Source: Actinomycetes bacterium (GTDB lineage Bacteria > Actinomycetota > Acidimicrobiia > Acidimicrobiales > Palsa-688). From it: 64,000 nt of DNA. Below are positions 39,696-56,937 of this stretch, one piece after another. The notes below the pieces were generated by a model, which was given only the letters and a program-made list of their open reading frames with translations, did no database searches and was not told where the DNA came from. The first letter of the stretch is position 1; each line of letters opens with the position of its first letter. The translations under genes and the position numbers were made by a program. The stretch is taken from NCBI GenBank assembly GCA_021838445.1, contig JAKCDU010000002.1, forward strand, positions 62,001-126,000. The letters are read 5' to 3'.

Positions 39696-40685
39696 ATGGT
39701 TTGGCAACTGGACCAGGGGCAACGTGAGCAGCTCATCGGAGTCGACCTGCCCCGTGACCCAGCCAGCTACATCAAGCAGATCAACGAGCCGCTGGGCGAG
39801 ATCTTCCAGACCTGGATGGAGAACCGGACCCGGGAGGGGAACACGCCGGTCGCCAATCTGGTGGACTTCCTGGTCAGGATCGATCTGGGTCATGACCCGA
39901 CGGAGATCTACGAGCACTTCCTGGGCCCCGAGGCCGAGACCGCCGGCCAGCCGATCAGCTGGCCCAGCAACTACGACATCGCCGCCGCCATCAACGAGAT
40001 CGCCACCTACGAGGTGATGTCGACGCTCGCCGAAGCTACGAACGAGACGGTCGAAAAGCCGAGCTACCAGGAGTACGCCGACGCCGTCCGCCGGGCCGGC
40101 GAACTGGGGCTGCAATGGCTGGGTGACGTGTACGTCCCGTCGTTCGTCGGTGAGGCCTCGATCATGGCCGAGGAGGAGTCGAAGAAGCTGCTGGAGGACC
40201 TCCAGCGCATGACCGACGAGGAAGGTGAAGAGGGCGAGCAGCAGCCCCTCGGAGAGGCCCCCCCGGACCTCGGCGGCGACGATCTGGTCGCGATCGCCGA
40301 GCAGCAGGTAGGGGCCGTGGAGCTCGACCCGGTGCAGATGCGCACGCAGATCCTCGCCTCGTGGCCGTCCTTTGCCTCGAACCTGCGCGATTCCAACCAG
40401 CAAACCCTCAAGAATCTGGACGAGGACGAGAGCGGGGCCCACCCGCTCCCCCTGCTCGTGATGGAGAACTGGGTCCAGGTCGGCGACGACCTCGAGCTGT
40501 TGGAACAGGCACAACACCAGTTCCTCTTGGACAACTGCACCCGGGGATCGGTGTGGATCCCGCTCAAAGGCGGTGTCTTCAATCCCGGCACGATCGCAGT
40601 AGCGGGACCCTTCACCCAGGACGACAAGGACCGGATCGTCCGCCGCTTCGGCGAATTCTCCAAGAAGGCTGTCGAGTTCCGCTGA
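39696..40685 (+). CDS. Hypothetical protein, 329 residues, acidic
   Basis: I do not recognise this protein. It is soluble, with no signal or membrane segment. Residues 1-130 are mixed helices (GVDLPRDPASYIKQINEPLG, then IDLGHDPTEIYEHFL), 135-200 are helical and end in a very acidic stretch (about 175-200, EEGEEGEQQ), and 205-329 have Trp-rich blocks (ASWPSFASNLRD, LVMENWVQVGDDLELL, GSVWIPLKGGVFNPG). GAAGGGAG lies about 9 nt before ATG 39696, so it is well translated. Neighbours on both sides are metabolic genes with their own signals, which gives no hint. Codon use matches its neighbours, so recent transfer is not suggested. Confidence 0.75.
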   Translation: MVWQLDQGQREQLIGVDLPRDPASYIKQINEPLGEIFQTWMENRTREGNTPVANLVDFLVRIDLGHDPTEIYEHFLGPEAETAGQPISWPSNYDIAAAINEIATYEVMSTLAEATNETVEKPSYQEYADAVRRAGELGLQWLGDVYVPSFVGEASIMAEEESKKLLEDLQRMTDEEGEEGEQQPLGEAPPDLGGDDLVAIAEQQVGAVELDPVQMRTQILASWPSFASNLRDSNQQTLKNLDEDESGAHPLPLLVMENWVQVGDDLELLEQAQHQFLLDNCTRGSVWIPLKGGVFNPGTIAVAGPFTQDDKDRIVRRFGEFSKKAVEFR

Positions 40686-40752: not shown

Positions 40753-41610
40753 ATGGCATACACCGTCATCCTCGTGGACGAGCCGGCACCAGGCGTCCGC
40801 CGCATCACATTGAACCGGCCCGAGAAGCGCAACGCACTGTTCCACCCGCTGCGGGGTGAGATCCTCGACGCCCTGCGGGACGCCGACCAGGACGACTCGA
40901 TCCGGGTCAGCATCGTGCGCGGCGCCGGCAAGTGCTTCTCGGCCGGCTACGACCTCGGAGGCGGCAACGAGGGACTCGACGAGCCGTTCTACACCCCCGG
41001 GGGAGACGGCCACTGGCCCCGCCATGTCACCGAGGGCTGGATGAGCATCTGGGACCTGGCCAAGCCGGTCATCGCCCAGGTCCACGGCTACTGCCTGGCC
41101 GGCGGCAGCGAGCTGGCCTCGGGCTGCGACCTCATCTATGTGGCCGAGGACGCCCAGATCGGTTACCCGGCGGTCCGCTTCGGCGTGCCCGACATGCACT
41201 TCCACGCCTGGACCATGGGGATGCGCAAGGCCATGGAGGCCATGCTCACCGGCAACTCCATGAGCGGGGTGGAGGCCGTCCGCCTGGGCTGGGCCAACGA
41301 CGCCTTCCCGGTCGACCAGCTCGACGCCGCCGTCGTGGACGTGGCCTCGCGCATCGCCCAGCTGCCGCCGGACATCGTCCAGATCAACAAGCGGGTCGTG
41401 CACCGCCAGATGGAGGTCATGGGGCTTCGCACCGGCATCAGGATCGGTACCGAACTGTGTGCCCTCGGAACCCGCCAGGAGTCCATGCGTGCGTTCATCG
41501 CCGAGATGGAGGGCGGCCTCACCGCCGCCCTGACCAAGCGTGACGCCCCCTTCGGCGACTACCGCACCGCCGAGCGCCAGCCTTCGGCCGCCCCCACCGC
41601 CGGGGACTGA
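40753..41610 (+). CDS. Enoyl-CoA hydratase/isomerase (crotonase) family protein
   Basis: A 285-residue crotonase acting on acyl-CoA intermediates of beta-oxidation-like pathways. The oxyanion-hole segments are FSAGYDLGGG and GYCLAGGSELASGCDL, with Glu in the first catalytic position. The second catalytic Glu (in the usual PE-x-x-x-G) is replaced by PAVRFGVPD, so it may not be a true hydratase; isomerase, thioesterase or hydrolase activity are options. The C-terminal helical region is longer than the 260 residues typical, with a Pro/Ala tail. A strong ribosome binding site and a dyad promoter precede it. It faces the CoA-transferase cluster. Confidence 0.88.
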   Translation: MAYTVILVDEPAPGVRRITLNRPEKRNALFHPLRGEILDALRDADQDDSIRVSIVRGAGKCFSAGYDLGGGNEGLDEPFYTPGGDGHWPRHVTEGWMSIWDLAKPVIAQVHGYCLAGGSELASGCDLIYVAEDAQIGYPAVRFGVPDMHFHAWTMGMRKAMEAMLTGNSMSGVEAVRLGWANDAFPVDQLDAAVVDVASRIAQLPPDIVQINKRVVHRQMEVMGLRTGIRIGTELCALGTRQESMRAFIAEMEGGLTAALTKRDAPFGDYRTAERQPSAAPTAGD

Positions 41611-41711: not shown

Positions 41712-44051
41712 TCAGATGCACACCCCGTCGCGGGCCAGTTGCTGCACCTTCTCGGCCCCGAGGCCGAGAACCTGGCCCAGGACCTCGGCGGTGTCAGCTC
41801 CGAGGCAGGGGGCCGACGCCGGCACCCGCTGGGCGGTGAGCGACATCCGCACCGGGTCACCGGCGTGACGCTCGGGCCCCACCTCCGGGTGGTTCAACTC
41901 GACGAGAAAGCCGCGGGCCCGCAGGTGGGGGTCGTCGAGATGGTCGAGCGGTCCCGTGACCGGACAGGCGGAGACCCCCGCCGCCTGCAGGCGGGCCGAC
42001 AGGTCGCCGCCGTCCTGGCCGGCTGTCCACTCAGCCACCCGGGCGGCGATCTCCCCGGCCCGCTCGAGACGGCCCCCAAGCGTGGTCGAACCAGGGTCGT
42101 CGGGCCAGCCGGCCACGCCGCGCAGGGCCTCCCACTGGGCATCGTCGGCAGCCACGATGGCCACCCAGCGGTCGTCGCCGGCCACCGGGAACACCCCGTG
42201 GGGGCAGGCCCGGGTGCTGTCGTTGCCCGCCGCTCGGGGGTCCGCACCCGACGCCCAGGCGTCGATGTAGACCTCGCCGCGCAGCCACGCCGCGAACTCC
42301 GTCTGGGCCATCTCGATCTGCTGACCCTCGCCGGTGAGACGGCGGTGGTCGATGGCCGCCAGGACGGCCACCGAGAGGAATTTGCCGGCGACGTGATCGG
42401 GATGGTTGAGCGAGGTGCCGCACGGATACGGCGCGTCGGGATGGTTCCACAGGTGGTGCTGACCGACGAAGCCGAAGTTGAGCGGCCCGTAGGCCGGCAT
42501 CCGGGCCAGCGGCCCGGTCGAGCCGTAGCCCTGTGACGACACGTAGATGACCTGCGGGTTGAGCGCTCTAACAGCCTGGTAGCCGAGGCCCATGTCCTCG
42601 AGCACCCCTCCGCGGTAGTTCTCCACCACGACGTCGGCCCGGGCGCACAGCTGGCGGGCCAGCGCCCTGCCCTCCTCGGTGTCCAGGTTGAGCGTGACGC
42701 TGCGCCGGCCCCGGCACTCGGCGTTGAAGGCGAAGGCGCAGTTGACCCGATCGAATCCGGCCGTGCGCAACACGTCGAGGTGCACGGCCGACTCGATCTT
42801 GATGACGTCGGCCCCGAAGCCGGACAGGACCAGGCTCAGCTCCGGCCCCACCGCGGCCATTCCGAACTCGACGACCCGCAGACCTTCGAGCAGCATCCCG
42901 TCGCCTCCCCCTGAGCGGGGGTCGGGGCGCTCGGGCCACACCAGGGCGGCCGGCGCGGCGGGGTCCACCGGGGTCGCCGGCCGGGCCGAGCTGCGTCCCG
43001 GTGTGGCCGACAAGTGGACCGGGGGCCGGACCACGGGAGCGCCCTCGAAGCCGGCGAAGGCCGACTCGTCGAAGACGCGGCGGTGCTGCACATGCTCGTG
43101 GGCCACGTACTCGCTCGGCATGTGGATGACCCCGAGGGTGGCCCCCACCCGGCTGGCCTCCTCGAAGAGCTGGGCCCGGGTACGGTCGCGCAGCGTCTCG
43201 GCCATCACCAGCCGGGCCACGTCGGCGTTCATCCGCCGGTACAGCGGGTCCAGCCACTCCTCGGCGGTGAGCACCTCCGGCTCTCCCGCCAGTCGCACCG
43301 CACCCCGCCACTGCTTGTCGTTGCCGATCACGAAGCGCACCCAGCCGTCCGCCGCCGGTAGCACCTGATAGAAGCCGTCGGCGTTCCGTTTGCCCTCGGC
43401 CGGCAGGAAAGGATTGATCTTCAGGTAGTCGTGGACGGCCACCGACCACGGCACCGTGCCGGCCAGAGTGGCCTCTTGGACGCTGATCTCCACGGTCTGG
43501 CCCCGCCCGTGACGGCGCCGGTCCATGAGGGCGGCGACGGCGCCGATGGCCCCGTACACAGAGGCGGCGTCGTGGGCGAGGAACCCCGGGCACCAGCAGG
43601 GCGCCCGGTCGGGGAACCCACTGGCGAACAGGGTCCCTCCGGCCGCCTGGGCGGTGAGCGGTTCGAGCCGCCAGCCCGAGCGGGGACCGCTCGACCCGAA
43701 GTCGGTCAGGGTCACGTGCACCAGGTGGGGATGAACCGCCCGTACGGAGGCCTCGTCGAGTCCGAGAGCGTCCCGCTCGGCGGGTCGCAGGTTATCGATC
43801 AGCACGTCGGCGCGCGCCGCCAGCCCGTGCAGCACCTGCGGGTCTCCGGCCCAGGCGAGGCGCCGCTTGTTGGCGTGGCGGTACTCCTCCTCGCTGCCCT
43901 GCGCCGGCTGTCGGCGGGGCCCATCGAGACGGATCACGTCGGCGCCCAGGTCGGCCATCATCCGGCCGCACATGGCTCCCCTCAAGTCGGTGACCTCGAG
44001 CACCCTCCAGGCCCCGAGCGGGCCGCGTCGCATTTCGGCGTCATGATCCAC
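41712..44051 (-). CDS. CaiB/BaiF CoA-transferase, two-domain fusion
   Basis: A 779-residue protein made of two family III CoA-transferase domains (about 8-385 and 400-779). Each has the Rossmann opening (RVLEVTDLRGAMCGRMMADLGADVIRLD; RVVEFGMAAVGPELSLVLSGFGADVIKIE, quoted in blocks) and the position of the catalytic Asp (FLAHDAASVYGAIG and NHPDHVAGKF). Such enzymes move CoA between carboxylic acids without a covalent thiol intermediate; most are dimers of single-domain chains, so the fusion would make an internal interlocked pair. GTG 44051 is favoured by a TATGCT box 8 nt upstream; ATG 44033 is the alternative. The substrate is unknown. Confidence 0.9.
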   Translation of the reverse strand: MDHDAEMRRGPLGAWRVLEVTDLRGAMCGRMMADLGADVIRLDGPRRQPAQGSEEEYRHANKRRLAWAGDPQVLHGLAARADVLIDNLRPAERDALGLDEASVRAVHPHLVHVTLTDFGSSGPRSGWRLEPLTAQAAGGTLFASGFPDRAPCWCPGFLAHDAASVYGAIGAVAALMDRRRHGRGQTVEISVQEATLAGTVPWSVAVHDYLKINPFLPAEGKRNADGFYQVLPAADGWVRFVIGNDKQWRGAVRLAGEPEVLTAEEWLDPLYRRMNADVARLVMAETLRDRTRAQLFEEASRVGATLGVIHMPSEYVAHEHVQHRRVFDESAFAGFEGAPVVRPPVHLSATPGRSSARPATPVDPAAPAALVWPERPDPRSGGGDGMLLEGLRVVEFGMAAVGPELSLVLSGFGADVIKIESAVHLDVLRTAGFDRVNCAFAFNAECRGRRSVTLNLDTEEGRALARQLCARADVVVENYRGGVLEDMGLGYQAVRALNPQVIYVSSQGYGSTGPLARMPAYGPLNFGFVGQHHLWNHPDAPYPCGTSLNHPDHVAGKFLSVAVLAAIDHRRLTGEGQQIEMAQTEFAAWLRGEVYIDAWASGADPRAAGNDSTRACPHGVFPVAGDDRWVAIVAADDAQWEALRGVAGWPDDPGSTTLGGRLERAGEIAARVAEWTAGQDGGDLSARLQAAGVSACPVTGPLDHLDDPHLRARGFLVELNHPEVGPERHAGDPVRMSLTAQRVPASAPCLGADTAEVLGQVLGLGAEKVQQLARDGVCI

Positions 44052-44059
44052 AGGTCCGG

Positions 44060-44065
44060 AGCATA
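44060..44065 (-). promoter_or_regulatory. Candidate -10 box for the two-domain CoA-transferase
   Basis: TATGCT on the minus strand, 8 nt before GTG 44051. Confidence 0.4.
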
Positions 44066-44105
44066 AAGCCGCCGGGGAGCGATCGCGGGTGGCAGCCCCA
44101 CCATC

Positions 44106-44111
44106 TAAGGT
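44106..44111 (+). promoter_or_regulatory. Leaderless -10 box for the AMACR-like gene
   Basis: TAAGGT, 7 nt before GTG 44119. It is divergent from the -10 at 44060-44065. Confidence 0.45.
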
Positions 44112-44118
44112 TCGGCTC

Positions 44119-45324
44119 GTGGGGAATGCAGCACAGCCCGCTTCGGGCCCGGAGCGCAGCGGGCCTCTCGGCGACGTCAGAGTGGTCGAGCTGGCCAGCC
44201 TGGCCCCCGGTCCGTTCGCGGCCTGCCTGCTGGCCGACATGGGCGCGGATGTGATCAGGGTCGACCGCATCGGGCCCCGGCCGGCGTTCGCCTCCGATCT
44301 GCTGGATCGGGGCAAGCGTTCCCTCGCGGTGGATCTCAAGCACGCCGGGGGCGTCTCGCTCCTCCTCGACCTGGTCGCCCGGGCCGACATCCTCATCGAA
44401 GGCTTCCGGCCGGGCGTGACCGAGCGTCTCGGTGTGGGACCCGACGCGTGCCTGGCCCACAACCCGGCCCTGGTCTACGGGCGCATGACCGGCTTCGGCC
44501 AGACGGGGCCTCTCGCCGACCGGGCCGGTCACGACATCGACTACATCGCCCTGGCCGGCGCGCTGTCGCGCATCGGCCGGCGCGACCAGCCCCCCACCCC
44601 GCCGCTGAACCTGGTCGGTGATTTCGGGGGCGGGAGCATGTTCTTGGTGTTCGGGGTGCTGTGCGCCCTCCACGAGGCGCGCCGCACCGGGCGGGGCCAG
44701 GTGGTCGACGCCGCCATGGTCGAGGGCGCCGGGTACCTGATGCTCCCCTTCTTCGGGACGCCGGCCTCGGCGGGACGCGCCGGGGGGGAAGCGGGCGACT
44801 CCCCCCGCCGGGCCCCGTTCGAGCGGGGCCGGTCCATCCTCGACTCCGGAGCCCCTTTCTACGATGCCTACCTCGCCGCCGACGGGCGGTGGGTGGCGGT
44901 GGGAGCCATCGAGCCTCAGTTCTACGCCGCCCTCCTCGCCGGTCTCGGCCTCGACGGGTCGGCCCTGCCCGACCAGATGGACACCGCGTCGTGGCCGGCC
45001 ATGAAGGAGCGCTTCGCCGAGGTCTTCGCGTCGCGCACCCGCGACGAGTGGGAGCAGGTGTTCGCCGGGACCGACGCCTGCGTGGCCCCGGTGCTCGAGC
45101 TCGACGAACTGGAGGATCACCCCCACCACCGCTCCCGGGGCTGGCTCGAGCACCACCACGGCGTGCTCCAACCCGGCCCGGTACCCCGCCTGTCGGTCAG
45201 CCCGGGGCGTATCGGCGGTCCGCCACCCGTCACCGGGGAGCACACCGACCGGATCCTCGAGGAGTGGCTGGGTCTCGACCCGGCGACCGTCGGTGCCATG
45301 CATCGGGACGGGGTGGTGGCATGA
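44119..45324 (+). CDS. CaiB/BaiF family, alpha-methylacyl-CoA racemase-like
   Basis: A single-domain family III protein of about 401 residues. The signature GHDIDYIALAGALSRIG and the NLVGDFGGGSM segment, with the His and Asp used for proton transfer, match alpha-methylacyl-CoA racemase (AMACR), which flips the C25 methyl of sterol or bile-acid side chains or of branched-chain acyl-CoAs. The GTG at 44119 follows a -10 box by 7 nt; an upstream GTG at 44089 adds ten residues with no conserved look. An AMACR next to a CYP125/124-like P450 fits side-chain oxidation of sterols or isoprenoids. Confidence 0.88.
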   Translation: MGNAAQPASGPERSGPLGDVRVVELASLAPGPFAACLLADMGADVIRVDRIGPRPAFASDLLDRGKRSLAVDLKHAGGVSLLLDLVARADILIEGFRPGVTERLGVGPDACLAHNPALVYGRMTGFGQTGPLADRAGHDIDYIALAGALSRIGRRDQPPTPPLNLVGDFGGGSMFLVFGVLCALHEARRTGRGQVVDAAMVEGAGYLMLPFFGTPASAGRAGGEAGDSPRRAPFERGRSILDSGAPFYDAYLAADGRWVAVGAIEPQFYAALLAGLGLDGSALPDQMDTASWPAMKERFAEVFASRTRDEWEQVFAGTDACVAPVLELDELEDHPHHRSRGWLEHHHGVLQPGPVPRLSVSPGRIGGPPPVTGEHTDRILEEWLGLDPATVGAMHRDGVVA

Positions 45325-45345
45325 CGGCCGGCCCGGTGCTAGAAC

Positions 45346-45359
45346 CAGAACACGTTTCA
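45346..45359. promoter_or_regulatory. KstR-like operator before the P450
   Basis: CAGAACACGTTTCA fits TnnAACnnGTTnnA at all but the first base. It lies 56 bp before the P450 start, and TAGAAC just upstream (45340-45345) could be its -10. Confidence 0.55.
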
Positions 45360-45415
45360 GGGCTGCCGGCCAGAGGGTCGCGCCCCTGGACGGGTGACCA
45401 ACGGGAGGGAACCCC

Positions 45416-46657
45416 ATGGAGCTGAGCGACATCGACCTGTTGAACCGGGACCGCTTCACCGAAGGCGTCCCCCACGAATGGTTCACCTACCTGAGGAGCA
45501 ACGCTCCCATCTACTTCCATCCCGAGCCCGACGGCGGGCCGGGGTTCTGGGTCTTCAGCAAGTACGACGACGTGGTGGCCATCGGCCGGGACGCCAAGCG
45601 CTTCTCCTCGGATCAGAACCGTGGTGGCGTGGTGCAGATCGAGGAGATGCCCGACGCTCAGGAGTGGGAGGGGGGCCAGCTGATGCTGACCATGGACCCG
45701 CCCGCCCACACCCGCCACCGACGCCTGGTCAACCGGGGTTTCACCCCGAAGATGATCGGGATGCTCGAGCCTCACATCCGTGAGATCACCGCCCGGATCA
45801 TCGACGAGGCGGTCGCCAAAGGTGACGTTGACTTCGTGGTGGACGTGGCGTCGGAGCTGCCTCTGCAGGTGATCGCCGAGATCATGGGGGTTCCGCTGGA
45901 GGACCGCCACAAGGTCTTCGACTGGTCCAACCGCATGATCGGCAGCGAGGACCCGGAGTACGCGGTGGCCCAGGAGAACGTCCAGCAGGCCCAGATCGAG
46001 ATGTTCATGTACGCCCAGTCGCTCGCCGCTCGCCGCCGCGAGGAGCCCCGCGACGACATCATCACCAAGCTGCTGTCGGCCGACATCGACGGCGACCAGC
46101 TGAGCGAGATGGACTTCAACCTGTTCTTCATGCTCCTCGCCGTGGCCGGCAACGAGACCACCCGCAACTCCATATCCCACGGCATGAACGCCTTCTTGGA
46201 GCACCCCGACCAGTACCAGCTCCTGCTCGAGCGTCCCGACCTCATGGACAGCGCCATCGAGGAAGTCCTCCGCTGGGCGTCGCCGGTGATGTACTTCCGC
46301 CGGAACGTCACCGAGGACGTTTTGTACAAGGGTCACGAGCTGAAAGCCGGCCAGAAGGTGACCATCTGGTACGTGTCGGCCAACCGCGACGAGGACGTGT
46401 TCAACGATCCGTTCCGCTTCGACATCGCCCGTCACCCCAACGACCATGTCGCTTTCGGTGGGGGTGGCCCCCACCACTGCCTCGGAGCCAACCTGGCCCG
46501 CATGGAGATGCGGGTCTTCTTCGAGGAGCTGACCCGGCGGGTGCCCTCCGTCGAGTCGATCGGTGAGATCTCCCGTCTGCGTTCGAACTTCATCGGCGGG
46601 ATCAAACATCTCCCGGTGCACTTCAGCGCGGCCGGCCGGGCCATGTCCCCCGCGTGA
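45416..46657 (+). CDS. Cytochrome P450, CYP125/CYP124-like
   Basis: A 413-residue soluble bacterial P450. The heme loop is FGGGGPHHCLG (Cys355), the I-helix has AGNETTRNS with the oxygen-activating Thr, and the K-helix is EEVLR. The DDIITKLLSADIDGDQLSE and MLLAVAGNETTRNSISHGM segments, and the C-terminal RLRSNFIGGIKHLPVHF, are close to CYP125 and CYP124, which hydroxylate the terminal carbon of cholesterol-type or methyl-branched lipid side chains. It is preceded by a KstR-like site and GGGAGGGA. Its stop overlaps the next CoA-transferase gene (GTGA). Ferredoxin and reductase genes are not adjacent. Confidence 0.93.
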   Translation: MELSDIDLLNRDRFTEGVPHEWFTYLRSNAPIYFHPEPDGGPGFWVFSKYDDVVAIGRDAKRFSSDQNRGGVVQIEEMPDAQEWEGGQLMLTMDPPAHTRHRRLVNRGFTPKMIGMLEPHIREITARIIDEAVAKGDVDFVVDVASELPLQVIAEIMGVPLEDRHKVFDWSNRMIGSEDPEYAVAQENVQQAQIEMFMYAQSLAARRREEPRDDIITKLLSADIDGDQLSEMDFNLFFMLLAVAGNETTRNSISHGMNAFLEHPDQYQLLLERPDLMDSAIEEVLRWASPVMYFRRNVTEDVLYKGHELKAGQKVTIWYVSANRDEDVFNDPFRFDIARHPNDHVAFGGGGPHHCLGANLARMEMRVFFEELTRRVPSVESIGEISRLRSNFIGGIKHLPVHFSAAGRAMSPA

Positions 46658-49077
46658 GCGACCCGGGCCTGCCCCTCGCCGGGCTGCGGGTGCTCGACAT
46701 GGCCGACGAGCGGTCGGAGCTGTGCGGCCGCCTGCTCGCCGACCTCGGCGCCGACGTGGTCCGCGTGGAGCCGCCCGGCGGCTCGCCGTCGCGGCGGCTG
46801 CCACCGCGCATCGGCGAGTTGAGCGCCTTCTTCGAGGTCCGCAACTTCAACAAGCGTTCGGCGGTCGTCGACTTGGACTCCGAAGCGGGCCGGGAACGCC
46901 TGCTCGACCTGTTGGGCCGGGCCGACGTGTGGATCGAGACGACCAAGCCCGGCCGCCTCGCCGCCGTCGGCCTCGATCCGGTCGACATCTCCCGCCGCTT
47001 CCCCCATCTCGTCGTCGCCTCCCTCACCGACTTCGGCCAGACCGGCCCCTACCGGGATTTCGAGGCCACCGACGACGTGCTCACCGCCATCGGGGGGGAG
47101 ATCTTCCGCAGCGGGGTGGTCGGCCGCCCACCGCTGCTGGTGCCCGGGTCGTTCGCCTACGACGTGTCGGGAGTGATGGGGGCGTTCGCGGTGCTCACCG
47201 CCTACTGGCAGAAGCTGCGGACCGGATCGGGTCAGCACCTCGACTTCTCCATCCTCGAGGCTTGCGCCCAGTCCACCGACTGGTCCCTCGCCAACTACAG
47301 CGCGGTGGCCGGCACGGGGGCCCCCTACCTCGAGGTGCGGGCCGGCTCGGGGATCGTTTACCCGATGTACCCCTGCAAGGACGGCTACGTGCGGCTGGTC
47401 ATCCTGAGCCCCCGCCAGTGGCACGCCATGCGGGAATGGTTGGGTGACCCGGAGTTCCTGAAAGACCCCCACTGGGATTCGCTGCTCGGCCGCATGAGCA
47501 TCCAGGAGGACATCCTCGACCCGCTCTACGCCGAGCTGTTCATGACCATGGGCATGTCCGAGCTGTCAGCCGAAGCTCAGCGGCGCGGCATCGTGATGAC
47601 GCCTGTGATGCATCCCCGGGCCGTGCTCGAGTCCGAGCACTTCCAGGCCCGGCACTCCTTCGCCGAGGTCCGCTACGCCGACGTCGGTGCCGGCCAGATC
47701 GCCGCCAGCATGCTGGAGCTGAACGGCCGACGAGCGGGCCTGCGGACCCCGGCCCCGACCCTCGGGGAGCACGACGCCGAGATCGAGCCCTCCTGGCCCG
47801 ACCACCGCCAGGTTGGCGGGGGAGAATCCTCGCCGGCCGGTCCCCGGCTCCCCTTCGAGGGCCTGCGGGTCATCGATTTCGGCCACGGGGGCGTAGGTGT
47901 GGAGGTCGGCCGCCTCTTCGCCGAGTACGGCGCCGACGTCATCAAGATCGAGAGCCGTGCCTACCCCGACTTCATCCGGCTGGTCGCCGGGTCGGAGATG
48001 TCCCCCTCGTTTGCCTCGTCTTCTCGCTCCAAGCGCAGCCTGGGGGTCAACATCAAGACCCCCGAGGGCCTCGAGCTGATCAAACGGCTGATCGCCGGGG
48101 CTGACGTGGTGATCGAGAACAACTCGGCGGGCACCATGGACGACCTCGGTCTCGGCTGGAGTGCGCTACGAGAGGTCAACCCCGGCGTCGTGATGGTGAG
48201 CAGCCAACTGATGGGCTCCACCGGACCGTGGTCGGGCTGGCTCGGTTACGGCCCGAGCACCCGCCCGGCAGGAGGAATGACCTGGCTGTGGAACTTCCCC
48301 GACGGCGACATGCCACCGGGAGCCAGCGTGATATTCCCCGACCACCTCGTCGGCCGGGTCGGAGCCGTGGCCGGTGTCGCCGGCCTCATCGCCCGTGAGC
48401 GCACCGCTGAGGGGGCCCATTTCGAGGCGGCCCAGGTGGAGACGGTGCTCACCTGCATGGCCCAGTACTTCCTCCAGGAGAGCCTCGAGCCGGGCTCGGT
48501 CAGGCCGGCCGGCAACCGCCGTGCCCAGGGCGCACCGTGGGGTGTCTACCAGTGTGCCGGCGAGGAACGGTGGGTGGTGATCACCTGCCGCCACGATGAC
48601 GACTGGTCGGCCCTGCGCAAAGCCATGGGTGACCCCGAGTGGGCCGCCGACCCGGCCCTCTCCGGCGCCGAGGGTCGCCGCCTCCAACACGATCGGATCG
48701 ACGCCCACCTCACGGAGTGGACGGCGCAGCGCAGCGACCGCCAGGCGATGGAGACGCTGCAGGCCTTCGGGGTTCCGGCCGGCATGATGACCTACGCCTC
48801 CGACGAACCCAACGACCCCCATCTGCAGGCTCGGGGCTACCTGGCCCCGATCGACCAACCCGGTGTCGGCCCCATGATCCTCGAAGGCCCGGCGTTCTAC
48901 GGTTCGGCCATGGGCCGACCCCTCATCACGCCGGCCCCGGCCCTGGGCGAGCACACCCGCGACATCGCCACCGCCCTCCTCGGTCTCGACGACGAGGGAA
49001 CCGAGGACCTGATCCGGTCCGGCGTGCTCGAAGTGACGCCACCCGTCACGGGTCAGCCGGCCAGCGCCAACATCTGA
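46654..49077 (+). CDS. CaiB/BaiF CoA-transferase, two-domain fusion
   Basis: An 807-residue double-domain family III transferase, the same design as the gene at 41712: domain 1 about 5-385 (DMADERSELCGRLLADLGADVV opening, catalytic Asp in SFAYDVSGVMGAF), domain 2 about 400-800 (DFGHGGVGVEVGRLFAEYGADVI opening, Asp in IFPDHLVGRVG). GTG 46654 overlaps the P450 stop, so P450 and transferase are cotranslated; a carboxylate made by the P450 is a natural substrate for CoA transfer. This link is inference. The 3' end overlaps a third, unusual transferase gene. Confidence 0.9.
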   Translation: MSDPGLPLAGLRVLDMADERSELCGRLLADLGADVVRVEPPGGSPSRRLPPRIGELSAFFEVRNFNKRSAVVDLDSEAGRERLLDLLGRADVWIETTKPGRLAAVGLDPVDISRRFPHLVVASLTDFGQTGPYRDFEATDDVLTAIGGEIFRSGVVGRPPLLVPGSFAYDVSGVMGAFAVLTAYWQKLRTGSGQHLDFSILEACAQSTDWSLANYSAVAGTGAPYLEVRAGSGIVYPMYPCKDGYVRLVILSPRQWHAMREWLGDPEFLKDPHWDSLLGRMSIQEDILDPLYAELFMTMGMSELSAEAQRRGIVMTPVMHPRAVLESEHFQARHSFAEVRYADVGAGQIAASMLELNGRRAGLRTPAPTLGEHDAEIEPSWPDHRQVGGGESSPAGPRLPFEGLRVIDFGHGGVGVEVGRLFAEYGADVIKIESRAYPDFIRLVAGSEMSPSFASSSRSKRSLGVNIKTPEGLELIKRLIAGADVVIENNSAGTMDDLGLGWSALREVNPGVVMVSSQLMGSTGPWSGWLGYGPSTRPAGGMTWLWNFPDGDMPPGASVIFPDHLVGRVGAVAGVAGLIARERTAEGAHFEAAQVETVLTCMAQYFLQESLEPGSVRPAGNRRAQGAPWGVYQCAGEERWVVITCRHDDDWSALRKAMGDPEWAADPALSGAEGRRLQHDRIDAHLTEWTAQRSDRQAMETLQAFGVPAGMMTYASDEPNDPHLQARGYLAPIDQPGVGPMILEGPAFYGSAMGRPLITPAPALGEHTRDIATALLGLDDEGTEDLIRSGVLEVTPPVTGQPASANI

Positions 49078-50528
49078 GCCAACCGCTACCTCTGCGAGGC
49101 CTCACCTTCGGGCCCACCACCCCCTGGTCGGCCCTTCTCCTGGCCGCTCTCGGCGCCCGGCGGGCGGCGCCGGGTCAGGCCGCGGACCTGCCAGGCGTCG
49201 AGAGCGACCGCCTCGATCCCCGACCCTGGGAGATCGGACTGCCGGCGGGAACCCTCGACTACTGCACCGGCTTGGCCCTGGCGACCGCGGCGGTGGCCGG
49301 GCGGGCGGTGTCGGGTACGGCGGTGGCCGTGCAGTTGCGCCTGCCCGAAGTGATGGCGGCAGCCTACGGTTCCCCCTTCGAGATGCGCCCCGGCCCGCCG
49401 GTGCGCGCCGGTGACGGTTGGCTGCACGCCGACCTGGGCGCGGCGGGTGACGCCGAGTCGTTCGCCCTCCTCCTGTCCACCCTGCCCGCAGGCCTCACCG
49501 CCCGCCGGATCGCCGGGGAAGCCCAGGGCTGGCGGCTCCCGGTCTGCGACTACCGCCGGCGCCCGGCGCCCGGCCCGGTCCGCCGGGATCCGGGTCACTC
49601 CCCCCCGGGCGACGACGGGGCGCTCTCCCCCGACCCAGTGCCGTGGCGGTGGACCTTCGGGACCCGACCACCCCTCGCCGCGCCGCACGGGCGGCCGCTG
49701 CGGGTGCTGGACCTGACCAACATGTGGGCCGGCCCGCTGGCCACGTGGCTGCTGGCCGGACTCGGAGCCTCGGTCACCAAGGTCGAGCCCTCCTTCCGCC
49801 CCGACGGATTCCGGGCCGTGGCCGGCGGCGGCATATACCCCGGCGGTAAGCCGTGCCAGCGGGGGCGGGACTCGGGCATGTGGAACGCCCTCAACCGCTC
49901 CAAGAAGGTCGTGGAACTGGACCTGAGGCGCCGGGCCGACCGGGACCGGTTCGTGGAGATGGCCGGTCACAGCGATGTGGTCATCGACAGCTTCTCCCCG
50001 CGGGTAATGCCCAACTTCGGGCTCGAGTTGCCACTCGGGCCCCTCTACGTGTCGATGCCCGCCTTCCCGCCCGGGCCGCAGCGGGACTGGGTCGCCTACG
50101 GCTCGGGGGTGCACGCCAGCAGCGGGCTCGGCGACGTCGGCGACGGCCGCTTCGCCGCCCCGGCCGTCAGCTACCCCGATCCCCTCGCCGGCTTCGCCGC
50201 CGCGCTGGCGGTGACGGCGGCGCTTCGGGGCCGCAGCCGGGGGGTGCCCATCGACGGGGTGGAAGTCTCCCTGGCCGAAGCAATCGCTCCGCTGTCAGCC
50301 GCGCCCCCCGAGGCCGCCGGGCCGGCCGGGCCGGGTGGGACCTCCGGGAGGGATGATCGTGGGGCAGGCGGGGAACATTCGCCTCTCGTTCACCCCGGCG
50401 TGGAGGGTCTGGGGCGGCGGCTGCTCGAGCGCGCCAGCGCGATGGGCTTGATGCGGGATGGCCGGGTTTGCGACCGAATGCTCCCGCACCCGGCTGCGGT
50501 CTTCGCCGCCAAAGAGAATGTGTTCTAG
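49074..50528 (+). CDS. CaiB/BaiF CoA-transferase with a degenerate first domain
   Basis: About 484 residues. The C-terminal part (from about 205, LRVLDLTNMWAGPLATWLLAGLGASVTKVE in blocks) is a family III domain with Asp in SYPDPLAGF. The first 200 residues keep only the later half of such a domain (LDYCTGLALATAAVAG, then LPEVMAAAYGS). The frame has no ATG or GTG at its natural beginning; a CTG at 49074 overlaps the previous stop (CTGA), so a rare CTG start or reinitiation is proposed. If translation begins later, at the next in-frame GTG (about 49290), the protein would be about 410 residues. The KstR-like site over its 3' end belongs to the next gene. Confidence 0.7.
   Translation: MSQPLPLRGLTFGPTTPWSALLLAALGARRAAPGQAADLPGVESDRLDPRPWEIGLPAGTLDYCTGLALATAAVAGRAVSGTAVAVQLRLPEVMAAAYGSPFEMRPGPPVRAGDGWLHADLGAAGDAESFALLLSTLPAGLTARRIAGEAQGWRLPVCDYRRRPAPGPVRRDPGHSPPGDDGALSPDPVPWRWTFGTRPPLAAPHGRPLRVLDLTNMWAGPLATWLLAGLGASVTKVEPSFRPDGFRAVAGGGIYPGGKPCQRGRDSGMWNALNRSKKVVELDLRRRADRDRFVEMAGHSDVVIDSFSPRVMPNFGLELPLGPLYVSMPAFPPGPQRDWVAYGSGVHASSGLGDVGDGRFAAPAVSYPDPLAGFAAALAVTAALRGRSRGVPIDGVEVSLAEAIAPLSAAPPEAAGPAGPGGTSGRDDRGAGGEHSPLVHPGVEGLGRRLLERASAMGLMRDGRVCDRMLPHPAAVFAAKENVF
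50514..50527. promoter_or_regulatory. KstR-like operator before the TetR gene
   Basis: GAGAATGTGTTCTA, a 14-bp dyad (arms GAGAA/TTCTA, spacer TGTG), lies 13 nt before ATG 50541 and overlaps the stop of the upstream transferase. GAGAAT can serve as -10. It suggests autoregulation. Confidence 0.65.
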
Positions 50529-51261: not shown

Positions 51262-52299
51262 TCAGCCGAGGATCACCTCGGCGACGGTTCGCATCTCGTC
51301 GAGCGACCGGGCCCCCACGACGAGGGTGGTGACCCCCGCCTCCTCCCACATCGGCAGCTCGTCGCGGATCTGCTCTCTGGTGCCGACCAGCGAGATGTCC
51401 GCCACCATCTGGCGGGGAACCGCGGCGATGGCCTCCTCGCGCTTGCCCTCGAAGAACAGGTCCTGGACCTGATCGGCCTCTTTCTCGTAGCCCATCCGGG
51501 CGAAGACGTTCTTGTGGAAGTTCATGTCCTTGGCTCCCATACCGCCGATGTAGAAGCCGAGCATCGGCTTCATGGCGTCGAGCACCGTGTCGCGGTCGTC
51601 GGTCACCACCACCGAGCAGTTGGCCAGGATCTCGAAATCCTCGGCCTGGCGGCGGGCACCCGGCCGGGCGAAGCCTTCGTCCAGCCATTCCCGGTACATG
51701 GTGTGGGCCCGGGGCGAGTAGTAGATGGGGAGCCAGCCGTCGGCGATCTCGGCGGTGAGCGCAATGTTCTTCGGCCCTTCCGATCCGAGGAGGATGGGGA
51801 TGTCGGCGCGGAGGGGGTGGACGATGGGCTTGAGCGGCTTGCCCAGTCCGAGGGCGTTCTCACCGCGGTAGGGCAGCGGGAAGTGGGGGCCGTCGCTGGT
51901 CACGGGGGCCTCACGAGCCAGGACCTGGCGCACGATGTCCACGTACTCGCGGGTCCGGGCCAGCGGCTTCCCGAAGGGTTGGCCGTACCATCCCTCCACG
52001 ACCTGCGGCCCCGACAGGCCCAGCCCGAGGGCCAGCCGACCGCCGCAGAGGTGGTCGAGGGTGATGGCGGCCATGGCCGTAGCCGTGGGCGTGCGGGCCG
52101 ACATCTGGACGATGGAGGTGCCGAGCCGGATTCGGCTGGTCCTCGATCCCCACCACGCCAGTGGGGTGAACGCGTCCGAACCCCACGATTCGGCGGTGAA
52201 CGCGATGTCGAATCCGAGCTTGTCGGCCTCGACCATCTTCTGCTCGGCGTCGGCCGGTGGCTGCGCGCTCCAGTAGCCCAGTTGCAGTCCGAGTTTCAT
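51262..52299 (-). CDS. LLM-class F420-dependent oxidoreductase (Rv3520c-like)
   Basis: A 345-residue luciferase-like TIM barrel that probably uses reduced F420, which links it to fbiC in this window. The N-terminus (KLGLQLGYWSAQPPADAE, SWGSDAFTPLAWWGSRTSRI) and LGLSGPQVVEGWYGQPF match the Rv3520c subfamily found in the mycobacterial sterol regulon. ATG 52299 has AGGGGAGAG about 8 nt upstream. It is divergent from the DUF35-thiolase operon, with a KstR-like site between, the same gene order as Rv3520c-Rv3521. The reaction is unknown; a steroid-ring or side-chain redox step is plausible. Confidence 0.92.
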   Translation of the reverse strand: MKLGLQLGYWSAQPPADAEQKMVEADKLGFDIAFTAESWGSDAFTPLAWWGSRTSRIRLGTSIVQMSARTPTATAMAAITLDHLCGGRLALGLGLSGPQVVEGWYGQPFGKPLARTREYVDIVRQVLAREAPVTSDGPHFPLPYRGENALGLGKPLKPIVHPLRADIPILLGSEGPKNIALTAEIADGWLPIYYSPRAHTMYREWLDEGFARPGARRQAEDFEILANCSVVVTDDRDTVLDAMKPMLGFYIGGMGAKDMNFHKNVFARMGYEKEADQVQDLFFEGKREEAIAAVPRQMVADISLVGTREQIRDELPMWEEAGVTTLVVGARSLDEMRTVAEVILG

Positions 52300-52341: not shown

Positions 52342-52355
52342 TAGAATGTGTTCTG
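52342..52355. promoter_or_regulatory. KstR-like operator in the LLM/DUF35 divergent region
   Basis: TAGAATGTGTTCTG shares 12 of 14 bases with the site at 50514-50527. TAGAAT (52342-52347) can be the -10 of the plus-strand operon, giving a 5' leader of about 10 nt. Confidence 0.65.
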
Positions 52356-52363
52356 ATTTTAGG

Positions 52364-52801
52364 GTGAGCGAACCGAGAGTCACAGAGACCAAGCTCGAGT
52401 TTCCTTACAGCCGAACGCTCGGACCCGTCGTCGGGGCGTTCCTCGCGGGTCTTCGGGAGGGGAAGCTGTATGGGATCCGAGGTAAGGACGGGCGGGTTCT
52501 GACCCCGCCCCTCGAGTACGACCCGGAGACGGGCGAATCGCTCGGCACCGACCTGGTGCCGGTGGGACCCGAGGGCACGGTGGTGGCCTGGACGTGGGTG
52601 GACCAGCCGAGCCCCAAGCATCCACTGACCCACCCTTTTTCCTTCGCCCTGGTCAAGCCCGACGGGGCCGACACGCCCCTGGTGAGCCCCGTCGATGCCG
52701 GGTCGAGCGACCGCATGTCCACCGGCATGAAGGTCCGGCCCCGCTTCAACCCCGAGCCTCACGGCCTGATCACCGACCTCACCTGGGAGCCAGTGGCATG
52801 A
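52364..52801 (+). CDS. DUF35-like OB-fold protein lacking zinc cysteines
   Basis: About 145 residues. The core (GPVVGAFLAGLREGKLYGIRG, then GRVLTPPLEYDPETGE) is the DUF35 (acyl-CoA-associated OB-fold) pattern, but the zinc-ribbon cysteines are missing. In mycobacteria one longer protein, Rv3521, appears to carry both halves; here the second half is the next gene, overlapping by 4 bp. DUF35 proteins are accessory subunits of thiolase-like retro-aldolases. GTG 52364 is chosen because an earlier ATG (52346) lies within the operator. Confidence 0.82.
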   Translation: MSEPRVTETKLEFPYSRTLGPVVGAFLAGLREGKLYGIRGKDGRVLTPPLEYDPETGESLGTDLVPVGPEGTVVAWTWVDQPSPKHPLTHPFSFALVKPDGADTPLVSPVDAGSSDRMSTGMKVRPRFNPEPHGLITDLTWEPVA

Positions 52802-53340
52802 CCGACACCCCGAAAGAACACATGGTCATGGAGCATCTCGTGACCCTGACCTATCACGAGCGGCTCACCGAGAACCTCAACCGTTACGCCGACAACCTTC
52901 TCGAGGGCCGCATCATCGGCGCCAAGTGCCCGTCGTGCGGACGGGTGTTCGTTCCCTCCAAGGGCTACTGCTCGCTGTGCGTGGTTCCCACCACCGAGGC
53001 CGACGAGGTGGAGGTCCCCGACACCGGGATAGTCACCGGCTTCACGATCGTCTCCCCGGTCAACTACTACGGGCAGAAGAAGACCGAGCCGTTCGTGTTC
53101 GCGTCGGTGCTCCTCGACGGGGCCGACACGACCCTCGGGGGCATGGACATCACCGGCGTCCCCCATTCCGAGCTGCGCAGCGGCCTGCGGGTCAAGGCCA
53201 AGTGGAAGCCCCGCGAGGAGCGCTCGGTGGAAGGCATGAGCAACCGGGGCTGGGGTGGCTTCGGTGACGTGGTCGAGTCATTCGAAGTCACCGGCGAACC
53301 CGACGCCGATGAGGAAACCTACAAGGAGCACCTGTTCTGA
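52798..53340 (+). CDS. DUF35 zinc-ribbon OB-fold protein
   Basis: About 180 residues. An N-terminal helix (LTENLNRYADNLLEGRIIGAK in blocks) leads to an intact zinc ribbon CPSC...CSLC (residues 42-61) and an OB-fold (GIVTGFTIVSPVNYYG). DUF35 partners such as ChsH2 bind acyl-CoA and assemble with thiolase-fold aldolases. The ATG overlaps the first DUF35 gene (ATGA) and the stop overlaps the first thiolase-like gene, so the four genes form one operon. Confidence 0.9.
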   Translation: MTDTPKEHMVMEHLVTLTYHERLTENLNRYADNLLEGRIIGAKCPSCGRVFVPSKGYCSLCVVPTTEADEVEVPDTGIVTGFTIVSPVNYYGQKKTEPFVFASVLLDGADTTLGGMDITGVPHSELRSGLRVKAKWKPREERSVEGMSNRGWGGFGDVVESFEVTGEPDADEETYKEHLF

Positions 53341-54407
53341 TGCCCGCCACCGACATAGCCATAGTCGGCTTCGCCCAGAGCCCGTCGCTTCGCGACGCCA
53401 ACCCCAGCGAGGTCCAGCTCCTGGTCCCCGTGGTCACCCAGGCCATCGAGATGGCCGGCATCAACCGCCGCGAGATCGGCTTCACGTGTGCCGGCAGCTG
53501 CGACTACCTGACCGGCGGACCTTTCGCCTTCGTGTCCAACCTCGAAGCGGCCGGTGCCTGGCCGCCCATCTCGGAATCGCACGTCGAAGCCGACGGGGCG
53601 TGGGCCATGTACGAGGCCTGGATGCGCCTGCAAGAGGGGGACATCGACATCGCCCTGGCCTTCGGCTCGGGCAAGTCCTCGCCGTCCAATCCGGCGGAGG
53701 TGTGGGCCCAGCAGCTCGACCCCTACTATCTGGCGCCCCTCGGGGTGGACCCGATCTCCCTGGCCGGCATCCAGGCCCGGGCTCTGCTCGACTCGGGCAA
53801 AGCCACCGAGGAGGACTTCGCCAAGGTCGTCGTCAACAGCCGCCGCAACGCCGCCGCCAACCCCAACGCCCAGCTCAAAGACGCCGACACCACCGTGGAG
53901 GCCCTTCTGGCCGAACCGTACTTCCGCACGCCCCTGCGCAAGCATGACTGCCCGCCCATCTCCGACGGGGCGGTGGCGGTCGTCATGGCCCGTGGCGACA
54001 AGGCCCGCGAGCTGTGCTCCCGGCCGGCGTGGATCCGCGGCATGGATCACCGCATCGAGGCCCACCAGCCCGGCGTGCGGGACCTCACTTCGTCGCCGTC
54101 CACGGCTCTGGCCGCCCGCAAGGCCGGCTACGACGGTGGCCCGCTCGACGTGGTGGAACTGTCGGGTACGTTCAGCCCCCAGGAACTGATCCTCCTCGAC
54201 GCTCTCGGCCTGTCGCTCGACGGCGACACCAAGGTCAACCCGTCCGGGGGGGCCCTGGCCGGCAATCCCATAATGGCCGTCGGGCTGGTCCGCATCGTCG
54301 AGGCCGCGGCCCGCATCATCGACGGATCCGCCAACCGGGTCCTGGCCCACGCCACCGGAGGACCTCTGCTCCAGCAGAACCTCGTCTGCCTCATGGAGGG
54401 GGAGTGA
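53340..54407 (+). CDS. Thiolase-like lipid-transfer protein, Ltp4-like
   Basis: A 355-residue thiolase fold whose canonical catalytic groups are absent. The N-terminal site that normally holds Cys reads SHVEADGAW, and the C-terminal GHP motif reads AGNP (Asn for His) in NPSGGALAGNP. It resembles Rv3522 (ltp4). Proteins of this kind form retro-aldolases with DUF35 partners and remove acetyl- or propionyl-CoA units from sterol side chains without the thiolase Cys. Its ATG overlaps the DUF35 stop (TGATG). Confidence 0.88.
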   Translation: MPATDIAIVGFAQSPSLRDANPSEVQLLVPVVTQAIEMAGINRREIGFTCAGSCDYLTGGPFAFVSNLEAAGAWPPISESHVEADGAWAMYEAWMRLQEGDIDIALAFGSGKSSPSNPAEVWAQQLDPYYLAPLGVDPISLAGIQARALLDSGKATEEDFAKVVVNSRRNAAANPNAQLKDADTTVEALLAEPYFRTPLRKHDCPPISDGAVAVVMARGDKARELCSRPAWIRGMDHRIEAHQPGVRDLTSSPSTALAARKAGYDGGPLDVVELSGTFSPQELILLDALGLSLDGDTKVNPSGGALAGNPIMAVGLVRIVEAAARIIDGSANRVLAHATGGPLLQQNLVCLMEGE

Positions 54408-54409
54408 CC

Positions 54410-55561
54410 ATGTCCAACGAGAGATGCGCCATCATCGGCGTAGGCCAGACCAACTTCAAGAAGCGGCGCGACGACGTGTCCATGCCAGGCCTGCTGCGCG
54501 AGGCCATCGACCGGGCCCTCGAAGACGCCGAGTTGACCCTGAGAGACGTCGACGCGGTGGTCATCGGCAAGGCCCCCGACGCCTTCGAAGGGGTGGTGAC
54601 CCCGGAGATCTTCCTGGCCGACGCTCTGGGCGCGACCAACAAGCCCCTGCTTCGGGTTCACACCGCCGGCTCGGTCGGGGGCTCGACGTGCATCGTCGGT
54701 GCCCACCACGTGATCGCCGGTATCCACGGCACGGTCCTGGCCGTTTCCTGGGAGAAGCAGTCCGAGGGCAACGCCCAGTGGGGCCTGGCCGGCGGCCGGT
54801 CGGGCGGCATCGGAGCCGGTGGCGCCTTCGCCCCGTGGATGCGGGCCTACATCGAGCGGTCGGGCGCCCCCGAGTACATCGGGTGGATGGTCGCGGTCAA
54901 GGACCGGCGCAACGCGGCGAAGAACCCATACGCCCACCTGAAGATGCCCGACATCACCTTGGAGCAGGTGAAGGAGTCCCCGATGCTGTGGGACCCCATC
55001 CGCTTCCAGGAGTCCTGTCCGTCCTCCGACGGTGCGTGCGCGGTGATCCTCACCAACGAGGAGGGGGCCAGGCGGTCCTCCAAGCCGGCGGCGTGGTTCC
55101 ACGGCCTTTCGGTCAAGAGCGAGTTGTCCAACTTCCCGGGTCGCAACCCGGTGAAGCCCCAGGCCGGCGTCGAGTGCGCCCACGACGTCTACCGCCAGGC
55201 GGGGATCACCAATCCCCGGTCGGAGATCGACGTGGCCGAGCTGTACGTTCCCTTCTCCTGGTACGAGCCCATGTGGCTCGAGGGTCACGACATCGCCGGT
55301 CCCGGCGAGGGCTGGAAGATGGTCGACTCGGGAGAGACCGACCTCGGGGGCAACTTCCCCGTGAACCCGTCGGGCGGGGTGTTGTCGACCAACGCCATCG
55401 GCGCTTCGGGCATGGTCCGCTTCGCCGAGGCCGCCCTGCAGGTTCGGGGACTGGCCGGTGAGCACCAGATTCCCGGTGTCCGCACGGCGCTGGCCCAGGC
55501 CTATGGCGGGGCCGCCAACTACTTCGCCATGGGGGTGCTGCGCACCACCCCTCCGCAGTAG
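54410..55561 (+). CDS. Thiolase-like lipid-transfer protein, Ltp3-like
   Basis: A 383-residue thiolase-fold protein, the Rv3523 (ltp3) counterpart. It has the general thiolase layout (IIGVGQTNF opening, VHTAGSVGGSTCIVG around the nucleophile region, NPSGGVLSTNAIG near the end), but the GHP histidine is Asn and the nucleophile position appears to be Ser-Val. It probably pairs with the Ltp4-like protein as a heterodimer. ATG 54410 has GGAGGGGGAG upstream. A long hairpin ends the operon. Confidence 0.88.
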   Translation: MSNERCAIIGVGQTNFKKRRDDVSMPGLLREAIDRALEDAELTLRDVDAVVIGKAPDAFEGVVTPEIFLADALGATNKPLLRVHTAGSVGGSTCIVGAHHVIAGIHGTVLAVSWEKQSEGNAQWGLAGGRSGGIGAGGAFAPWMRAYIERSGAPEYIGWMVAVKDRRNAAKNPYAHLKMPDITLEQVKESPMLWDPIRFQESCPSSDGACAVILTNEEGARRSSKPAAWFHGLSVKSELSNFPGRNPVKPQAGVECAHDVYRQAGITNPRSEIDVAELYVPFSWYEPMWLEGHDIAGPGEGWKMVDSGETDLGGNFPVNPSGGVLSTNAIGASGMVRFAEAALQVRGLAGEHQIPGVRTALAQAYGGAANYFAMGVLRTTPPQ

Positions 55562-56931: not shown

Positions 56932-56937
56932 GCCCAC

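Follow-up and report, generated by a model that had tools for sequence, protein, structure and literature searches.

A CYP125 operon with fused BbsEF-type CoA-transferases in a predicted KstR-type sterol regulon of an uncultured actinobacterium

The window analyzed here is a stretch of 64,000 nucleotides from the genome of an uncultured actinobacterium known only from metagenomes (GCA_021838445.1, contig JAKCDU010000002.1), and all positions refer to this stretch. Between 41712 and 50528, a cytochrome P450 gene is flanked by four genes of the CaiB/BaiF type of coenzyme A (CoA) transferases. Judged from its sequence, the locus is very probably the CYP125 operon of a KstR-type sterol side-chain regulon.

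Genes and layout of the locus

An earlier note on this DNA had described four CaiB/BaiF genes around a P450, two of them double-domain fusions, one AMACR-like and one with a reduced first domain. This description was confirmed by a Pfam search, in which PF02515 (CoA_transf_3) was found in all four open reading frames (ORFs), as two stretches each in the first and third gene and as one each in the second and fourth. The AMACR-like protein reaches 380 bits to the alpha-methylacyl-CoA racemase (MCR) of Mycobacterium tuberculosis, and the reduced protein, termed CaiBc, has a compressed first half. The operon and its regulator comprise the following features:

41712-44033, minus strand: fusion A, a CoA-transferase with a BbsE-like N-domain and a BbsF-like C-domain (two Pfam stretches, PDB matches, tree; catalytic Asp in the C-domain only)
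44089-45324, plus strand: MCR/AMACR homolog (380 bits to M. tuberculosis MCR; start at 44089 or 44119)
45346-45359, minus strand: KstR-type operator before CYP125, TGAAACGTGTTCTG, with one mismatch to TnnAACnnGTTnnA (pattern search)
45416-46657, plus strand: CYP125 cytochrome P450, predicted sterol C26 monooxygenase (534 bits to CYP125MRCA, 360 bits to CYP125A1, 48% identity to the latter)
46654-49077, plus strand: fusion B, with a BbsE-like N-domain and a BbsF-like C-domain (Pfam, PDB matches, tree, structure model)
48340-48342, plus strand: Asp563 codon of fusion B, the predicted catalytic Asp and counterpart of BbsF D178 (alignment; PDB title of 9fol)
49074-50528, plus strand: CaiBc, a reduced two-part CaiB protein (Pfam; conserved in ten homologs; half-fold match)
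50178-50180, plus strand: Asp codon of the YPDP motif of CaiBc, invariant in 10 of 10 homologs
50514-50527, plus strand: KstR-type operator GAGAATGTGTTCTA, ending 14 bp 5′ of the TetR start codon
50541-51146, plus strand: KstR-like TetR repressor (top NCBIfam match NF033703 KstR)

The ORF of fusion A is over-long and opens at 44462; its domains begin near 44033, and the inferred start is the ATG close to this position. The GTG start of fusion B (46654) lies inside the 3′ end of the P450 gene (46657), which gives the overlap already claimed from the sequence, with a length of 4 bp. CaiBc probably starts at a CTG at 49074 within the TGA stop codon of fusion B (CTGA). The same layout is present in the near-identical genome L015, and in L014 CaiBc has a GTG start 5 bp past the stop of fusion B. 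Due to the probable CTG start inside the stop codon and the overlap of the P450 gene with fusion B, the genes for CYP125, fusion B and CaiBc are read as one translationally coupled unit.

In a comparison with solved structures, the 12 best PDB sequences for the P450 were all CYP125, followed by CYP124. With 48% identity to CYP125A1 of M. tuberculosis over 383 aligned residues, above the 40% membership threshold, the protein is assigned to CYP125 and is predicted to oxidize the sterol side chain at C26. The AMACR-like protein is similar to M. tuberculosis MCR over its full length (118 bits for the best non-racemase) and has kept the three catalytic residues of MCR and human AMACR, namely H126, D156 and E241 in MCR numbering, where the motifs GHDIDY, VGDFGG and GAIEPQ are aligned. 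The catalytic residues of MCR were taken from the titles of mutant PDB entries.

KstR-type operators and recurrence of the gene set

The KstR motif is TnnAACnnGTTnnA, and in M. tuberculosis sites are located at kstR, Rv3520c/Rv3521 and Rv3545c(CYP125)/Rv3546 (PMC1995591). KstR-type sites were found in the window at 45346, 50514 and 52342 and thus at the same three kinds of place, each departing from the strict consensus by one or two positions. The site at 45346 resembles the one at Rv3545c/Rv3546 (PMC1995591), and a site is present at the same spot before CYP125 in L014 (3816). With at most one mismatch, the pattern occurs at just five places in the 4.0-Mb genome, and a reversed control pattern at none. 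For the TetR protein, the best NCBIfam model NF033703 KstR scores 132.8 bits, below the curated cut-off of 280, and the protein is therefore designated KstR-like only. By their three operators, the window genes can be tied to a putative KstR-type sterol regulon. The shared operators also point to co-regulation, the lack of which had been named in the earlier note as evidence opposed to its reading.

In the literature, the corresponding genes of M. tuberculosis are Rv3520c (F420 oxidoreductase), Rv3521, ltp4 (Rv3522) and ltp3 (Rv3523). The genes downstream of the TetR gene form a series of the Rv3520c-Rv3521-Rv3522-Rv3523 type, with the Rv3520c, Ltp4 and Ltp3 types in M. tuberculosis order. The features on both sides of the operon are:

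40753-41610, plus strand: enoyl-CoA hydratase (ECH_1, Pfam 153 bits), convergent with fusion A
51262-52299, minus strand: F420-dependent LLM oxidoreductase of the Rv3520c family (TIGR03559, 498.6 bits, cut-off 335; ORF opens at 52392)
52342-52355, plus strand: KstR-type operator TAGAATGTGTTCTG in the divergent gap of Rv3520c/Rv3521 type (pattern search)
52364-52801, plus strand: OB-fold protein of ChsH2_C type, Rv3521-like (Pfam PF01796; start at 52346 or 52364)
52594-53340, plus strand: second small ORF with Zn-finger/OB-like sequence (ORF frame; true start probably near 52822)
53340-54407, plus strand: Ltp4-like lipid-transfer protein (PRK07937, 484.8 bits, cut-off 419)
54404-55561, plus strand: Ltp3-like thiolase-domain protein (PRK08313, 596.9 bits, cut-off 514; ORF opens at 54014)
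55678-56937, minus strand: amidohydrolase (Pfam PF04909), whose orthologs (62-71%) in other genomes are neighbors of CYP125 or of further genes of the KstR regulon

The likeness to the KstR regulon of M. tuberculosis (CYP125 Rv3545c, Rv3520c-Rv3523, MCR Rv1143) comprises CYP125, the MCR-type racemase, the Rv3520c-Rv3523-type series, the KstR-like TetR protein and KstR sites at the CYP125, kstR and Rv3520c/Rv3521 promoters. For this reason, the suggestion that the pathway is not obviously described in mycobacteria was not supported: the mycobacterial KstR pathway has the same regulator type, operators, P450, racemase and downstream series, and the difference is confined to the enzymes of CoA activation. 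In contrast to M. tuberculosis, the window cluster and its contig have no ligase gene and encode the two fusions and CaiBc instead, and the host genome has no strong KshA. Furthermore, the racemase gene adjoins CYP125, whereas the MCR of M. tuberculosis is encoded elsewhere in the genome.

A chance origin of the block is excluded on comparative grounds because it is conserved in two congeners, L015 (97%) and L014 (82%), and rearranged in two other families, f59 (G387) and f2 (G340), where the same module genes stand in reshuffled order. All KstR places found in G387 are located on one 117-kb contig together with CYP125, CaiBc, fusion B, MCR, TetR, Ltp3/Ltp4, Rv3520c and fusion A. The five places in G340 are all confined to two contigs, one of which carries CYP125, CaiBc and both fusions. 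A KstR site was found upstream of fusion B at a distance of 35 bp in G387 (two mismatches) and 63 bp in G340 (one mismatch), and a further one in G387 44 bp before the pair of ECH and fusion A, in which ECH lies directly 5′ of the fusion A ortholog. Among the genomes compared, a complete fusion B ortholog of at least 58% is always accompanied by a CYP125 of at least 64% on the same contig. The public label of L015 (JAGWSF010000111.1) is Acidobacteriota, although it belongs to the same genus as this genome; the label looks wrong. A mycobacterial host was not supported, as the congeners with a public label are uncultured metagenome-assembled genomes filed under 'Actinomycetes' or 'Acidobacteriota'.

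The CaiB genes might also be mere bystanders that came to lie beside CYP125 by chance in a genome-wide expansion of CaiB paralogs. The genome contains 33 CaiB domains and about nine double fusions, so CaiB is not rare here, and P450-CaiB neighborhoods are common: 8 of 24 P450 genes are located within 10 kb of a CaiB locus (2.2 expected) and six near a ligase (5.4 expected), by a simple binomial statistic that ignores contig ends and clustering. This explanation is nevertheless considered highly improbable in view of the overlapping genes, the co-occurrence in rearranged order and the KstR sites that immediately precede fusion B in two further families. This organism may make general use of the pairing of P450 and CoA-transferase.

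Sterol markers elsewhere in the genome

A second locus with a KstR site (C75, G000:C75:32001-65816; L124, L131) encodes IpdA/IpdB, an EchA20-type hydratase, an acyl-CoA dehydrogenase pair and a PRK06059 lipid-transfer protein, as well as a P450 with 46% identity to the window CYP125, a CasG-like ligase and its own TetR protein. The IpdA homolog scores 277 bits to solved IpdA (72 for the next family) and the hydratase 429 bits to PRK07938 (cut-off 260); the C,D-ring genes IpdAB and EchA20, used as marker of 9,10-seco degradation, are thus present. For HsaC, considered as a marker of ring degradation, a TIGR03213 match of 305 bits (cut-off 366) was found far from the steroid genes, and the KshA-bearing relatives G084 and G107 have none.

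The lack of a strong KshA in this genome counts against sterol degradation: its PF19298 match has 24.8 bits (cut-off 23.3), compared with 123-136 bits in most ligase-type CYP125 genomes. In total, six genomes (G000, which is the present one, G395, G396, G387, G340 and G402) have no match or one of about 25 bits, and KshA is also missing in some ligase-type genomes (G020, G096). Either the steroid nucleus would be opened by another enzyme, a KshA-independent opening being possible, or just part of the molecule would be used.

Alternatively, the substrate could be another branched isoprenoid or triterpenoid, such as a hopanoid side chain or a branched lipid, for which a CYP125-like P450 and a KstR-like regulator had been recruited. 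The missing strong KshA in this and five other module-bearing genomes would fit, as would the KstR match below the family cut-off and the nearest P450 structure, which is an ancestral CYP125 and not CYP125A1. The same applies to metagenome-assembled genomes (MAGs) of Myxococcota (L016-L020), which contain fusion B orthologs of 51-55%: two of these adjoin an Rv3520c-type F420 oxidoreductase, two are accompanied by a second fusion paralog, and none is near a CYP125 of comparable similarity. A non-sterol substrate is regarded as unlikely due to the KstR operators at positions equivalent to those in M. tuberculosis, the Rv3520c-Rv3523-type series and the homologs of IpdA and EchA20 near another KstR site of the same genome. 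CoA transfer and racemization on the oxidized side chain of a sterol, as proposed in the earlier note, are supported as a prediction by CYP125, the MCR-like racemase and the three operators.

CoA-transferases and the CYP125-linked ligase

In both fusions, the N-domain matches BbsE (9fn0_A) and the C-domain BbsF (9fn0_B) of benzylsuccinate CoA-transferase; which of chains A and B is E and which is F was assigned in this analysis by where the Asp is located. A tree of 70 domains has one branch (support 100/99, 100% of bootstrap trees) that splits all 30 N-type from all 30 C-type modules, with BbsE on the N-type and BbsF on the C-type side. Two adjacent single-domain gene pairs of the same genome (C17, C65) fall into the same two groups. 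The catalytic Asp, taken as BbsF D178 from the PDB title of 9fol (D178-CoA adduct), is present in every C-domain aligned. At the aligned position, the N-domains of both window fusions carry Y or H, and the Asp is also absent in nearly all other N-domains; those of the fusion A and B types have an Asp one residue later.

The fusions are single chains of 807 aa and about 774 aa. The structure model of fusion B is one compact chain (predicted local distance difference test, pLDDT, 89; predicted template modeling score, pTM, 0.93). Superposition of the C-domain on chain D of BbsEF gave a template modeling (TM) score of 0.94 and a root-mean-square deviation of 1.8. The superposition covers residues 396-795, and the fold of the N-domain rests on sequence and on Foldseek rows for 9fn0_A. 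The window fusions are therefore classified, at the level of sequence and model, as covalently joined CoA-transferases of the BbsE+BbsF type. They share the domain tree grouping, the Asp in the BbsF-type half only and the C-domain fold with BbsEF, the succinyl-CoA:(R)-benzylsuccinate CoA-transferase of anaerobic toluene degradation (PDB 9fn0, 9fol). In contrast to BbsEF with its separate E and F subunits, they carry both halves in one chain, are about 30% identical and stand in an aerobic P450/sterol context, and they are termed BbsEF-like, not BbsEF.

Of the about six transferase domains that had been proposed to act serially, the number was recovered as six Pfam stretches. Six active domains were rejected, as the catalytic Asp is absent from the fusion N-domains, and the count is reduced to three predicted transferase sites with catalytic Asp and one racemase.

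Of the 366 Pfam positions, the second half of CaiBc covers 4-209. The compressed first half is not attributed to an assembly frameshift, since ten homologs from several families share the layout, with the Asp of the second part being invariant. The CaiBc model (pLDDT 65, pTM 0.72) gave a half-fold match only, and the protein may be a partner protein or a reduced transferase. No described counterpart of the CaiBc family was found. Its members (homologs L083-L089) are kept beside Rv3520c even on contigs on which no fusion B was seen (L083-L085), and the FbiC-ADH arrangement upstream of CaiBc also occurs in L083.

To our knowledge, in all sterol degraders investigated to date, CoA activation of the CYP125 product is attributed to an ATP-dependent ligase such as FadD19. 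An acyl-CoA synthetase adjoins CYP125 in several relatives that have a close CYP125 and lack the CaiB module; in G190, both genes are divergent with two KstR sites between them. With 727 bits (cut-off 543), this ligase was typed as PRK07798, to which FadD19 presumably also belongs. In a comparison of 16 related genomes, mostly MAGs, an ortholog of this CYP125-linked ligase was found with at least 590 bits (590-1317) in all ten module-free genomes, whereas the six module genomes yielded only 389-480 bits, i.e., it is missing there. The best match in the present genome has 391 bits and 46% identity, and no AMP-binding gene is located on the 162-kb contig of the window. The contrast to ligase-based activation drawn in the earlier note is supported by this distribution.

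In M. tuberculosis, FadD19 forms the acyl-CoA and MCR converts the 25R acyl-CoA to 25S for beta-oxidation (PMC12682127). For the window operon, we infer enzyme activities, substrate, CoA donor and division of labor as follows. CYP125 would oxidize the terminal methyl group of the sterol side chain to the C26 acid, which fusion B would load with CoA taken from another acyl-CoA, either succinyl-CoA or a short acyl-CoA from beta-oxidation, via an aspartyl-CoA intermediate on Asp563. Fusion B would thereby stand in for the ATP-dependent ligase that adjoins CYP125 in relatives. The MCR homolog would then epimerize C25, followed by beta-oxidation. The probable substrates of fusion A and CaiBc would be other steroid acids of this regulon, either formed later or of different shape.

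The evidence for fusion B as activator of the C26 acid is about evenly balanced. With the same even confidence, the best reading overall is that a non-orthologous enzyme has taken the place of the CoA ligase acting on the CYP125 product, at a saving of ATP. More tentatively, side-chain activation could follow an ATP-independent route in which a single-chain BbsEF-type transferase has displaced the FadD19-type ligase in the KstR regulon and moves CoA from pathway products to the C26 acid. The genomes concerned also have no strong KshA, and the nucleus is perhaps opened otherwise in them.

Several further observations weaken the case for such a replacement. The genome has 46 AMP-binding matches elsewhere, among them a ligase directly behind a KstR site (C52) and the CasG-like ligase (522 bits, cut-off 750) near the C75 KstR site. 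M. smegmatis can use cholesterol without FadD19 and requires it for C24-branched sterols (PMC6273163); the absence of the ligase alone is therefore no proof of its replacement. The six module genomes are not independent, as three share a genus and a fourth shares the family, and all evidence is genomic. In G397, a partial fusion B adjoins CaiBc, KstR, Rv3520c, Ltp4 and Ltp3; it is cut by the contig end, and the best CYP125 of this genome has just 49%.

The operon could accordingly serve sterol side chains while a remaining FadD ligase activates C26, with the CaiB fusions acting on later steroid acids (C24, C22, ring-derived propanoate) or recycling CoA between intermediates. KstR-linked ligases are still present both here (C52, C75) and in G387, where the regulon contig has several. 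A single activation step would not require two fusions and CaiBc, and the fusion A of G387 sits with ECH, away from CYP125. On the other hand, fusion B is tied to CYP125 by the 4-bp overlap, and the missing ligase is exactly the one that adjoins CYP125 elsewhere. This explanation is judged to be rather unlikely.

All the kinds of enzyme involved are known individually. Neither their combination nor the apparent substitution of a single-chain BbsEF-type transferase for the ligase was found in the literature searched, and a search that covered few subscription papers revealed no publication in which CaiB is connected with the sterol side chain. The nearest precedent is SAR202, with genomes that combine a CaiB/BaiF expansion and CYP125-type P450s, proposed to feed new substrates (recalcitrant organic matter) into degradation (PMC5395668). 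Many CaiB/BaiF paralogs together with CYP125-type P450s are common to both cases, but in the passages of the SAR202 report covered here no operon, operator or ligase-absence evidence is given and no specific step is assigned to the CaiB proteins (PMC5395668).

If the proposed replacement is true, a CoA-transferase at the CYP125 product step would alter the energetics of sterol breakdown and would provide enzyme tools for making steroid-CoA thioesters. Furthermore, genome surveys built on FadD19 or KshA would miss a lineage of sterol degraders. The widespread and mostly unassigned double-domain CaiB fusions would gain a concrete, testable role.

Elsewhere in the window, a gene for a 329-aa protein without a Pfam match (39696-40685) is just 62% identical to its L015 counterpart, compared with 96-97% for its neighbors, which suggests a fast-evolving or exchanged gene. 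The window genes for DXP synthase (12405-14285), a GH15 trehalase-like protein (30005-32014), FO synthase of the FbiC type (34362-36707) and a GH38 mannosidase (58450-61479) are ordinary neighbors.

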